A DNA stretch of 64,000 bases from Methanooceanicella nereidis. GTDB taxonomy: Archaea > Halobacteriota > Methanocellia > Methanocellales > Methanocellaceae. The stretch is from NCBI RefSeq assembly GCF_021023085.1, contig NZ_PGCK01000008.1:1-64000 (forward strand), read 5' to 3'. The position numbers and the translations under genes were made by a program. The notes beneath the pieces are model-generated. The model saw only the letters and a list, made by a program, of their open reading frames with translations, made no database searches and was not told the origin of the DNA. Below, piece by piece: positions 3,726 through 47,340 of this stretch; the first letter of the stretch is position 1; each line of letters starts with the position of its first letter.

Positions 3726-5090
3726 CTATAGCCGCTGCTGGTGAAAGAAAGGCCTCGCCTCCTTCAGCGTCCTCAGGCGATAATCGTCCGTTAACACTTT
3801 TCTGGTGCTTTCGGCGGGGACACTTAAGGATATTTCTTTTGTACGCCCATACCTTCCCTTGCTCACTACGGTCGCGTTGATTATCCCCAGCATGTCAAGC
3901 TCGGATATCAGGTCTGTCACACGTCTTCCTGTAAGGATGTCTATGTCTATCATCCTGCAGAGCCTCCTGTAGACGTTGTAGACATCGCCGGTGTTGAGCT
4001 CGTGGGAGCCTTCTGAATCAAGCAGCACTATGCTGTAAAGGACCAGCTTACTCTGTGTAGGAAGGGTGCGCACGACCTCGGTGATCCTGTCCAGCTCTAT
4101 CTTTTCACGGGCCTTCCTGACATGCTCTTCCCTTACCACGGTATCGCTTAGCCTTTCGGAAAGCTCGGCCGACACTCTCAGGAGGTCGAGCGCTTTTCTT
4201 GCGTCGCCGTGTTCCTGGGCTGCGAAAGCCGCACATAACGGTATTACCGCCGGCTCCAGCATATTTTCCTTGAACGCCATCCTGCTGCGCTGCTCAAGAA
4301 TATCTCTTAGCTGATCGGCATTATATGGCGGGAAAATTATCTCTTCTTCGCCGAGAGACGATTTTACTCTCGGGTCAAGATAATCCGTGAATGTGAGGTC
4401 ATTGGATATCCCTATTATGCTTACCTTGGCTTTTTTGAGGTCCGAGTTTATTCTCGAAAGATTGTAAAGGATATCGTCACCGCTTTTCTTAACAAGGTTG
4501 TCTATCTCATCAAGGATTATGATTGCTATCTGTTCCTTTTTATCGAGCGCGTCCCTGAACTCATTGAATACCTGGTCTGTCGGCCAGCCGGTGATGGGCA
4601 CATCCCTGTTGTAATGCCTGGCCAGGTGCGCCAGGATCCTGTACTGGGTATCGATCCTCTCACAGTTTATGAATAGCACTTTGCATTCAATGTTCATCTT
4701 TTCGGCAAGGTCCTCGAGCTTTTTGCTTACGCTCTCCAGAGTCGCTGTCTTTCCTGTGCCTGTTTTACCGTATATCAATATGTTAGAAGGTGATTCACCC
4801 CTGAGAGCTGACACCAGGATCTCCGCGACACTGTTGATCTGATCAAGCCTGTGCGGCAGGTATTCCGGAGTGTAAGATGGTCTTAATACTTCTCTGTTCT
4901 TGAAAATGGGCTTAATGCTCAAAAGATTTTCAAATACTTTATCTATTGATTTTTCCTCAGCATTACCTACCAGGTCATCAAAAAGTCCCTTTTCGGACCT
5001 ATGTTCCCTGTCATTTTCGGAGGACTGGGATGAAGGTGGGGATGTTTTATCAGTGATCATAATCCGTTCTCCAAAACTAAGCGGTTCCAA
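3726..5090 (-). CDS. cdc6: ORC1/CDC6-family replication initiator
   Basis: This protein binds origin recognition boxes and loads the MCM helicase. The AAA+ module shows Walker A GKTGTGKT, Walker B IIILDEIDNL, sensor 1 VSIIGISND and sensor 2 HGDARKALDLL. A C-terminal winged-helix region (about residues 340-450) follows, with STRKVLTDDYRLRTL near the end. The length of 454 residues includes a 35-40 residue low-complexity N-terminus (PPSSQSSENDREHRSEK). The start at 5090 is possible, and a Met at 5060 (MITDKTS) is an alternative. An ORB-like site lies only about 45 bases upstream of the start at 5135, which suggests autoregulation as well as origin function. Confidence 0.95.
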   Translation of the reverse strand: MEPLSFGERIMITDKTSPPSSQSSENDREHRSEKGLFDDLVGNAEEKSIDKVFENLLSIKPIFKNREVLRPSYTPEYLPHRLDQINSVAEILVSALRGESPSNILIYGKTGTGKTATLESVSKKLEDLAEKMNIECKVLFINCERIDTQYRILAHLARHYNRDVPITGWPTDQVFNEFRDALDKKEQIAIIILDEIDNLVKKSGDDILYNLSRINSDLKKAKVSIIGISNDLTFTDYLDPRVKSSLGEEEIIFPPYNADQLRDILEQRSRMAFKENMLEPAVIPLCAAFAAQEHGDARKALDLLRVSAELSERLSDTVVREEHVRKAREKIELDRITEVVRTLPTQSKLVLYSIVLLDSEGSHELNTGDVYNVYRRLCRMIDIDILTGRRVTDLISELDMLGIINATVVSKGRYGRTKEISLSVPAESTRKVLTDDYRLRTLKEARPFFHQQRL

Positions 5091-5134
5091 TAGAAACGAT
5101 AGTTTCGTTCTATATTAATAGTTGTGGTAGGCAT

Positions 5135-5156
5135 AACCCCTTAATTTCTACTGGAG
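5135..5156 (-). promoter_or_regulatory. origin recognition box 1
   Basis: Read on the minus strand it is CTCCAGTAGAAATTAAGGGG followed by TT, matching the euryarchaeal ORB pattern (CCA, GAAAT, AAGGGG). It sits about 45 bases upstream of the orc1/cdc6 start. Confidence 0.8.
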
Positions 5157-5280
5157 TATAGCTTTATTATCAAATATTTTTATGAATAAGCTTTTTAAAT
5201 TCCATAATAAATTTAATACTACATAAATTCCTGTGTAATTTGAAAAATAAACGGTTATAAACAAAAATGACTTCGCAGTA

Positions 5281-5302
5281 AGGGCATAATTTCCACTGGA
5301 AA
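5281..5302 (-). promoter_or_regulatory. partial ORB dyad
   Basis: The minus strand has TTTCCAGTGGAAATTATGCC, a perfect TTTCCAGTGGAAA dyad like the ORB left half, but the G-rich half is missing. It may be a degenerate or mini-ORB. Confidence 0.5.
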
Positions 5303-5323
5303 AATTAATGTTCAGTAACACCC

Positions 5324-5345
5324 ACCCCTTAATTTCGAGTGGAAC
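5324..5345 (-). promoter_or_regulatory. origin recognition box 2
   Basis: On the minus strand GTTCCACTCGAAATTAAGGG continues with GT, sharing GAAATTAAGGGGT with box 1. It has the same orientation as box 1 and lies 189 bases away. Confidence 0.8.
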
Positions 5346-5349
5346 TCTG

Positions 5350-5378
5350 AAAACACAAAAACAAACTTTTTGTGTTTT
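5350..5378. repeat. 12-bp perfect inverted repeat in the origin
   Basis: The arms are AAAACACAAAAA (5350-5361) and TTTTTGTGTTTT (5367-5378) around the 5-base loop CAAAC. It is pure A/T except for the central C/G pairs. It lies inside the ORB cluster next to box 2, so it could be a duplex-unwinding or cruciform feature. A terminator role is less likely because no gene ends here. Confidence 0.7.
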
Positions 5379-5589
5379 TTATGGTGAAAACACATTGTTG
5401 TTTCGTTATGAAAATCATACTATTTATAAATAACCATATGTATAGCAAGCGTTTACTGAACAAAAATGATCCGAGTATATAAATTAAGGCCAAAATTCAA
5501 ATATATTATTATTTTTTTAAATTAAAACGTTCAATTAGCGATCATCAGGAATATCTGGCTATGAATTAAGTAAACTGTCAGAAAAATAT

Positions 5590-5756: not shown

Positions 5757-6390
5757 TATCGGATGGCAGGTATGCACTAATTTCACGAATACGCTAAACC
5801 ACTAAATTTTTTTAATATTTAAGAGCTCAAAGGCACAAAAAAATTTCACTCACAAAATCACTAAGGCTCTAATTTCACAATCAAGGCACTAACTGCTCAA
5901 ACGCTCGACTCAACGCTCAAAGGGCACAAAGTCTCCAACACTAAAACAAGGCTCTAACATCACAAAAAGCACAAATGTTTAAATCACTGTTTGTGTTGCA
6001 CCTTATCGATCATCATTATATCCGGTAGTATCCATATTTGTCTGTAAATCTTTTGTGACAACCTTTTAGCATGTGTATAGATTCCCAAATTACAGCAAAA
6101 TCGGGATATCACCGACATCACCATATCCGGTATGCTTCAGCCATAAAGCGGAAACCGTGCCATTAAAATTTCGTGCCTTAGTGGAGATTAGTGTCTTGTT
6201 TTAGTGTTGGAGACTTAGTGTTCTTTGTGCGTTAAGTCGAGCATTTGAGAAGTTAGTGCTTTGATTGTGAAATTAGAGCCTTTGAGTTTTGGTGAGTAAA
6301 AAAATTCTTAGAGCTTTCGTGTACTTAAAATCTAAAAAAATTTAGTGTTTTTGTGTTTTTGTGAAATTAGCGTATACCTGCCATCCGATA
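5757..6390. repeat. large imperfect palindromic element, copy 1
   Basis: The outer ends are inverted: TATCGGATGGCAGGTAT at 5757 and its complement ATACCTGCCATCCGATA ending at 6390. Similarity continues inward in the arms, for example CTAATTTCAC, CACTAAATTTTTTT, AAGGCTCTAATTTCACAATC and CCAACACTAAAACAAG against their complements at 6190-6370. The central part around 6000-6150 is unpaired. No open frame of note is present. The arms are built from short phrases rich in GTG/CAC. A homologous element lies at 26556-27097 and a decayed arm at 47238-47340, so this is a dispersed family. Confidence 0.85.
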
Positions 6391-6494
6391 AAAACAACAC
6401 AAAAACATCAATACAAAAATAGCCTAAGAATTATTATAGTTCATGAAAAAAGTTATTTACCATACACGCGCTAAAACTCAAAGGTGATTTCATC

Positions 6495-26195: not shown

Positions 26196-26555
26196 CTGCT
26201 TTAATCCTTTGCATTCAAGCTAATAAGTGATAATATCGTTGTTTTTTTATTATGCAAGCTCCAGATTTATAAAACTCCACGAATTCGAACGCGAGTACTC
26301 CGTTTCCTGAACTCTTTAATATATCAGTTCATCTTAAGATCAAGTCCACCACAAAGGCGACGAAGGTACACTAAACTGTTAACCGCGAAGCACACGAAGG
26401 CGAAAAAGGTATACAATTTTTTTTAAGTATATGATAACCTTCTAAAAAAGTCATTTGTGTCCCTTTGTCGCCGTTGTGCGCTCCCATGAAAGACTTTTTG
26501 ATGGTCTCTGTAAAGACTTGCATGTAACATCTATTATGGGATCGATGTTCTGCCA
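26196..26555. other. non-coding flank with GTG-phrase repeats
   Basis: This holds the glycosyltransferase promoter region and, from 26345, phrases such as CACCACAAAGGCGACGAAGG and CGCGAAGCACACGAAGGCG. A facing block TTTGTGTCCCTTTGTCGCCG is at about 26452. The phrases resemble those in the palindromic elements and are probably decayed members of the same repeat vocabulary. Confidence 0.45.
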
Positions 26556-27097
26556 TTGTGCCTGTCGGATGGCAGGCAGGCACGTAACCTCACAGAAACA
26601 CGGAAACACAAAAATTTTTTTATATGATTTTTTAAGGTCACGAAAACCCAAAGGTTCTCTCACCAAACCACAAATGGCTCTAGTATCACCGTCAACGCAC
26701 TAAAGTCTCTAATGCACGGCTTAATGCTCGAAGTGCTCTAAGTCACTAACGCTAAAACAAGACCCCGAACATTCTCCAAAAACACTAAATTTTAACTGCA
26801 CGGTTGACGCTTACACGACAAATATATCACTGCTATAGGTCAAGGGGAACACAAACCGGGATATTGAACTTTTGTGATTTGGGGAATGTTCGTGTCTTGT
26901 TTTAGCGTTGGTGACTTAGAGAGGTTGGTGCGTTGAGCCGGGCGTTTGGGCTGTTGGTGCGTTGACGGTGATACTTGAGCCCTTTGTGGTTTGGTGAGTA
27001 AATTCTTAGTGCTTTTCGTGACCTTAAATTCTAAAAAAATTTTGTGTTTCCGTGTTTCTGTGAGGTTACGTGCCTACCTGCCATCCGACAGGCACAA
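26556..27097. repeat. large imperfect palindromic element, copy 2
   Basis: The outer arms are inverted: TTGTGCCTGTCGGATGGCAG from 26556 and CTGCCATCCGACAGGCACAA ending at 27097. Further inward, GTAACCTCACAGAAACACGG and the AAACACTAAA and CTAAAACAAGACCCCGAACA blocks are mirrored at 26870-27060. Its right arm is clearly related to that of the element at 5757: both have GTGTCTTGTTTTAG, GGTGAGTAAA, and CCTGCCATCCGA. There is no coding capacity. It lies 240 bases upstream of the top6B start. Confidence 0.85.
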
Positions 27098-27337
27098 CCA
27101 TAAAAACTTCATCTCAAAGACCATTTAGTAAGACACGTACTTTCATTCTTAAAACCTGAGCAAGACCCCGCTCATCAAAGATTTCGTGGTGAAAAAGAAG
27201 ATAAAATCAATGAATTACCAAGACTTACCGCTTAGAACCTTAAAACCGTGCTCTGTTCTACGGATATGGCCAAATAATACTTTCAGAAAGCACTAACGTT
27301 TTATAATAATACCTGTATCTGTAAAATAATCAATAAT

Positions 27338-47237: not shown

Positions 47238-47340
47238 AAAAATCTAAAAAAATTTATGTCTACGTGTAATCAGTCTTTACCTGTCATCATAAATGAATAA
47301 CATAGCAAACATCATCTAAAAAAGCCTAAGAACTAAAAAA
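47238..47340 (+). repeat. decayed arm of the palindromic element family
   Basis: AATCTAAAAAAATTTA, then TTTACCTGTCATC and AAAAAAGCCTAAGAACT follow the same order as 6330-6432, where AATCTAAAAAAATTTAG, TACCTGCCATCC and AAAATAGCCTAAGAATT occur. The match includes sequence outside the palindrome of copy 1. Only the right side is recognisable. It lies in the 290-base gap upstream of the binding-protein gene. Confidence 0.6.

Follow-up and report, generated by a model that had tools for sequence, protein, structure and literature searches.

Gene-less palindromes of Methanooceanicella nereidis as probable derivatives of an inverted-repeat element carrying a GxxExxY nuclease gene

Two long palindromes in a 64,000-nt window of the archaeon Methanooceanicella nereidis (contig NZ_PGCK01000008.1, positions 1 to 64,000) belong to a genome-wide family, some members of which enclose a gene for a small nuclease of the GxxExxY family. 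We consider it probable, at roughly 0.7, that the palindromes derive from a small mobile GxxExxY inverted-repeat element, of which they would be MITE-like copies lacking the gene.

Inverted-repeat and folding analysis showed that both window elements are genuine palindromes. Element 1 (5757-6390; ends CGGATGGCAGG at 5760-5770 and CCTGCCATCCG at 6377-6387) is gene-less and consists of a CA-rich 5' arm with CAC/CTC phrases (5757-5982, plus strand) and a GT-rich 3' arm (6163-6390, plus strand), which are 79-82% complementary over 229 nt (outer arms 5757-5846/6301-6390, 79%; inner arms 5844-5982/6163-6301, 82%). Element 2 (26556-27097; ends at 26566-26576 and 27077-27087) is a plain gene-less copy with arms that pair at 97% (26556-26620/27033-27097) and 83% (26659-26763/26894-26998). 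As single strands the two fold with energies of -279.9 kcal/mol (z -25.6) and -329.8 kcal/mol (z -31.5), respectively, relative to dinucleotide shuffles. Since no shuffle was as stable as either element, we can exclude that the arms pair no better than shuffled sequence, a check that the first-pass annotation had named. Its description of a single repeat family, with common ends and mirrored arms built from spaced GTG/CAC phrases, was upheld. The degraded third arm that it placed at 47238 is also real, but represents the right-hand end only: a degenerate remnant of an element-1-type copy (47239-47335, plus strand) aligns with 6327-6433 at a score of 43, compared with a maximum of 25 among 200 shuffles.

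Searches of the 3.19-Mb draft genome (41 contigs, denoted C1, C2 and so on) with either element as the DNA query returned dozens of copies. The end word CGGATGGCAGG occurs 78 times in forward and 78 times in reverse orientation (reversed control, 0), and pairing of the ends gave 68 palindromes. Of these, 64 are plain copies of 509-536 nt, three measure 1006-1018 nt and a single one 628 nt. As had been proposed, the elements exceed ordinary MITEs and REPs in length. All 68 are intergenic, with a CA-rich 5' arm and a GT-rich 3' arm made up of words such as CACTAANN and CTCNAANN. In type A (47 copies, including that at 26566) the palindrome lies inside a larger repeated unit, the left part of which is asymmetric while the right part measures 110 nt; type B (21 copies, including that at 5760) lacks these flanks. 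The type A unit in the window (~26310-27197, plus strand) comprises a small phrase hairpin (26350-26482, plus strand), the palindrome and a conserved right flank (27088-27197, plus strand; 89-100% identity in 40 scored copies). Element 1, a type B copy, owes its length of 628 nt, as opposed to ~520, to the insertion in its loop of a ~90-bp sequence with inverted ends (6025-6114); the same sequence is present in the loop of another copy (C6:128-709). We therefore rejected a 600-bp class of its own in favour of a ~520-nt copy with a ~90-bp guest.

Element 1 had also been singled out as lying beside the origin. An Orc1/Cdc6 gene (3726-5090, minus strand; Pfam Cdc6_C, 1.6e-32) is indeed only ~670 bp away. 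However, as this copy is one of 68 or more spread over the genome, nothing ties the family to the origin, and an origin-specific element was rejected. The AT-rich segment beside the Orc1/Cdc6 gene (5100-5450) contains TTCCACTGGAA-like words that are probably origin recognition boxes.

In three copies (C2:45448-46453, C5:170998-172015 and C5:178628-179635) an open reading frame replaces the loop between the same ends and arms. The family is therefore not purely non-coding: the earlier statement that there is no transposase stands, but the description of the family as non-coding does not. The gene is intact at C5:178628, where it provides the only open reading frame of at least 100 aa in any of the 68 palindromes; the C2:45448 copy starts late in frame and that at C5:170998 is interrupted by a stop. 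The three copies are 88-93% identical to one another end to end, across both arms and gene, and all 65 gene-less copies match the arms of the gene-bearing ones, the best at 88-94% identity. Five palindromes, two of them gene-bearing, are clustered within 15 kb at C5:166000-183800 (L158).

The 134-aa loop protein was assigned by profile searches to the PD-(D/E)XK nuclease superfamily, as a member of the GxxExxY family (TIGR04256; E 4.5e-36, 123.7 bits against a cut-off of 35) and of PDDEXK_3 (PF13366; E 2.5e-34, 118.6 against a cut-off of 22), both cut-offs being the curated ones; its GxxExxY and D...ExK motifs are intact. Residues D78, E88 and K90 were invariant among 35 homologues, as was a glutamine, giving the motif D-x9-E-x-K followed by Q-x3-Y/H. 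A search of PDB sequences gave no match, and searches of PADLOC and PHROGs gave weak matches only, one of them Cas4-like. In an AlphaFold model (pLDDT 93.4), the best solved folds were SSO0001, which we take to be a Cas4 protein, and lambda exonuclease, both with TM-scores near 0.45; given these scores, the resemblance of the predicted core to Cas4 and lambda exonuclease is a statement at the level of the superfamily. GxxExxY thus shares the D, ExK and Q-x3-Y motifs and a predicted core fold with Cas4, lambda exonuclease and RecB-type nucleases, but differs from them in being a minimal core of ~130 aa and the sole gene of a repeat-bounded element.

Among 60 relatives searched, GxxExxY scored above the cut-off only in the four Methanocellaceae; a search at the level of the class yielded no more than four genomes. 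At 13 of 18 Methanocellaceae GxxExxY-region loci the gene is directly bordered by long inverted repeats that score 54 or more (shuffles, at most 27). This holds for six of six loci in the genome that we take to be M. paludicola, and each GxxExxY lineage has a repeat 'dialect' of its own. For a wider sample we took 80 GxxExxY loci from many phyla out of a scan of 85,000 genomes, choosing them by protein patterns alone. A general inverted-repeat score over 700 nt overlooked most short-armed loci (13 of 75 reached 30), and we therefore used a near-flank test that assumes no repeat word. Inverted repeats scoring at least 16 flanked 75% of 77 testable loci, which are not fully independent of one another, as against 4% of 667 shifted windows (p ~3e-33); about one-fifth of the loci had no detectable inverted repeat. 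The phrase word was present upstream at 58 of 78 loci and mirrored downstream at 51 of 79, compared with 2 of 63 and 0 of 74 in the far flanks, 8-9 loci with the word in the wrong orientation and none for the reversed control. Additionally, the best partner of the upstream arm was the locus's own downstream arm in 19 of 76 cases (~1 expected). Gene-less phrase repeats were found at 70, 131, 23, 15 and 2 places in five genomes with GxxExxY, whereas among 56 relatives without GxxExxY over the cut-off only two had a match, a single one each, in a comparison that is confounded by phylogeny.

These data bear on an alternative that we regard as unlikely, namely that the palindromes form a MITE family of their own, mobilised by a conventional transposase, and that GxxExxY merely landed in some of the loops in the manner of an IS. 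The termini are indeed conserved and dispersed, and the loops are hot spots for IS. Four M. paludicola palindromes carry loop insertions of ~1.3 kb (L323 933-2105, L324 979-2196, L326 2496-3656 and L325 896-2071), of which all three tested encode Mutator-family (IS256-type) transposases, and several M. nereidis contigs end in IS-like sequence inside loops (e.g. C2:409498 and C5:231845). However, although these insertion sequences occupy the same loops, they have transposases and ends (GGTGCTGTCCC) of their own, unlike those of the palindromes, and are thus guests. No transposase was found within a CGGATGGCAGG-type end pair in the stretches examined of the 41-contig draft, in which some contigs break inside loops. 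The end-to-end identity of the three gene-bearing copies also argues against a chance landing, which likewise does not explain arms abutting the gene in 75% of 77 loci from many phyla. Unpaired end words were accounted for by a break in the contig, the scar of a deletion or a coding match and, with no transposase enclosed by the ends in the stretches examined, we rejected a classical IS remnant. The first-pass annotation had raised the possibility that the elements are homologous to a known IS that has lost its genes; a classical IS was not found, but gene-less versions of a gene-bearing element look similar in kind. The ~90-bp guest of element 1 may be a miniature version of the IS with GGTGCTGTCCC ends.

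Dispersal of complete elements was evident in M. paludicola. A 644-bp inverted-repeat-bounded element is present there in two copies (L202 and L204) that are 98.6% identical and lie with sharp edges at unrelated sites 1.46 Mb apart, and another element is present in three copies (L192, L196 and L199) that are 90-96% identical, again with sharp edges. Between the latter copies synonymous differences far outnumber non-synonymous ones (pN/pS ~0.05-0.14), indicating that the GxxExxY protein has been kept functional. Comparison of relatives revealed occupied and empty sites: in Bacteroides finegoldii a phrase-bounded element with inverted repeats on both sides of GxxExxY lies directly after radA and before the next gene, whereas the corresponding site in Parabacteroides distasonis is a 13-nt gap. 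Similarly, GxxExxY, with an upstream phrase only, separates fabD from fabG in Sphingomonas parapaucimobilis; in Sphingomonas paeninsulae and Rhizobium only a short distance lies between these two genes. When the element of one Methanocellaceae genome (G003) was compared with two others (G001 and G002), the upstream gene was found but synteny was lost. The protein of G003 is identical to that of a Methanocella sp. locus (L280).

The results presented above suggest a model in which the complete element would consist of an end word, a long phrase-built arm, the GxxExxY gene, a mirrored arm and a mirrored end word. While the DNA is single-stranded at replication, the arms could fold back into a hairpin or cruciform, which the GxxExxY nuclease would recognise by its own dialect and cut at or process. 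The copy might then be joined elsewhere, or host repair might fill it in, and no obvious target duplication would result. After loss of the gene, a copy would retain the arms and could be spread in trans, yielding the palindromes of 509-536 nt, which in turn might be eroded through deletion between short direct repeats, inversion of the loop or IS insertion into it. Whereas anatomy, copy number, gene-repeat association and dispersal were observed, we infer that GxxExxY is the mobilising enzyme, that the arms are its substrate and that mobilisation occurs in trans; the direction of change, taken here as gene loss, may instead have been gene gain.

Several observations stand against this reading. 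No excised intermediate was seen. Target-site duplications, a further check that had been proposed, were not apparent on visual inspection either of the edges of type B copies or of the dispersed elements in M. paludicola, outer edges being degenerate. Only 8 of 72,556 plasmid records contain GxxExxY and none of the phage set does, a scarcity at odds with a transposon that spreads freely, and a clear phrase pair was present at only two of five plasmid loci, in addition to the fifth of loci lacking a detectable repeat. Finally, M. paludicola has at least 34 intact palindromes of ~460 nt with the same architecture, distant sequence similarity and common inner words (e.g. CACCGTCAACGCAC). However, none of the copies found in their dialect bears the gene, the six GxxExxY genes of M. 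paludicola being in other dialects; the link between palindromes and GxxExxY in this genome therefore rests on analogy. No such palindromes were found in the two other Methanocellaceae genomes searched.

Less likely still than transposition by an ordinary transposase is that the hairpins act as structured RNA or transcript ends (double-stranded RNA, terminators or RNA stability), possibly as a panhandle between the 5'UTR and 3'UTR that controls GxxExxY. Folding is very stable, compensatory pairs are more numerous than in shuffles (328 cells versus 183-202), and type A copies favour sites between convergent genes (22 convergent, 15 tandem and 6 divergent pairs). However, concerted evolution also keeps arms alike and the shuffles do not preserve relatedness, while convergent sites are also those where insertions are least harmful. 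Wobble pairs outnumber A.C mismatches 434:271 in type A, but the two are nearly equal in type B (157:134), so that pairing is not clearly kept at the RNA level on one strand. Since there was also no Rfam match above the gathering score and the strand bias is weak and inconsistent, the giant hairpin RNA suggested at first was set aside as weakly supported. Clean loss of a copy further argues against an RNA function: at C15:38164 (scar C15:38050-38277, L182) the type A flanks are joined without the palindrome, and the point where they meet is a CAGGCAC direct repeat, as would be expected from replication slippage across a hairpin.

It is very improbable that the elements serve the chromosome, as nucleoid or replication landmarks with GxxExxY as a domesticated resolvase for trimming palindromes that extrude. 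The gene is under purifying selection, is scarce on plasmids and was not found in phages, and arms and gene have a common dialect, all of which would fit. However, related genera differ in the dialect, location and number of their copies, and copies with an intact gene are scattered over sites that have nothing in common.

Among the closest known counterparts of the palindromes are the MITEs (Nezha, RUP, NEMIS and others; PMC3733652). As in MITEs, the copies are non-coding, dispersed and intergenic, with terminal inverted repeats and a gene-bearing partner that has the same ends. They differ in being ~510-630 nt long and palindromic nearly throughout, in that no target duplication was seen, and in having as partner a PD-(D/E)XK nuclease rather than a recognised transposase. 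The REP/RAYT systems (REPtrons and TIRtrons; PMC3733652) likewise comprise dispersed palindromes around a small single gene, a possible mobiliser in trans, with a repeat specific to each gene lineage. However, REPs are 20-40 bp long and end in GTAG, and RAYTs belong to the HUH tyrosine transposases, whereas the repeats here are more than ten times longer (~520 nt), have CGGATGGCAGG ends and accompany a D-ExK protein.

We regard the system as one of a known kind, a MITE with a gene-bearing partner, with a substantial chance that the partner defines a new class. More tentatively, and at somewhat less than even odds in our view, GxxExxY and its phrase-built repeats may represent a class of mobile element not recognised before, with members in archaea as well as in many bacterial phyla. 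Such elements would be moved by a lone minimal nuclease resembling Cas4 and lambda exonuclease that acts on long hairpins, with gene-less hairpins being spread in trans, and would explain the ubiquitous CACNAAG-type repeats. To our knowledge, such short intergenic repeats occur in very many bacterial genomes and have no accepted explanation. If they are arms of GxxExxY elements, one small nuclease family would account for them, and a protein family named after a motif would gain a testable role. The Methanocellaceae would be the extreme form, with arms of more than 200 nt and more than 60 gene-less palindromes to three gene-bearing ones, and transposition by a Cas4-like nuclease, if true, would bear on casposons, CRISPR adaptation and the biology of palindromes. 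In a search of open-access literature we found no account of either flanking inverted repeats or gene-less derivatives of GxxExxY (TIGR04256/PDDEXK_3), a family name that appears in two of the papers, apparently in other contexts, and likewise nothing relevant on the repeat words or on Methanocella repeats; subscription journals and database notes lay outside this search, and an earlier mention of the association elsewhere is possible.

Some minor features of the repeats are also worth recording. The orientation of type A loops relative to the flanks was one way in 22 copies and the other in five (20 of the 47 were unscored), which suggests inversion by recombination between the arms; inverted loops are found, for example, at C1:340482, C10:15473 and C12:67333. 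The M. nereidis genome contains a second GxxExxY lineage (C12:110745, L187; C2:41073, L193; and C4:19038-19343), the arms of which contain tandem repeats of ~40-45 bp and have gene-less relatives in the form of tandem arrays elsewhere. The small hairpin at 26350-26482 is in the dialect of this lineage, scoring 58 against the arms of L187 and L193 compared with 15 in shuffles, and many further copies of it are present genome-wide, some standing alone and often in 43-bp tandem arrays. Lastly, the start codons of several predicted GxxExxY reading frames (e.g. L242, L258 and L238) are placed too far upstream, so that phrase repeats are translated into peptides such as NHQDTKTPR; short database reading frames of this kind may be translated repeat.
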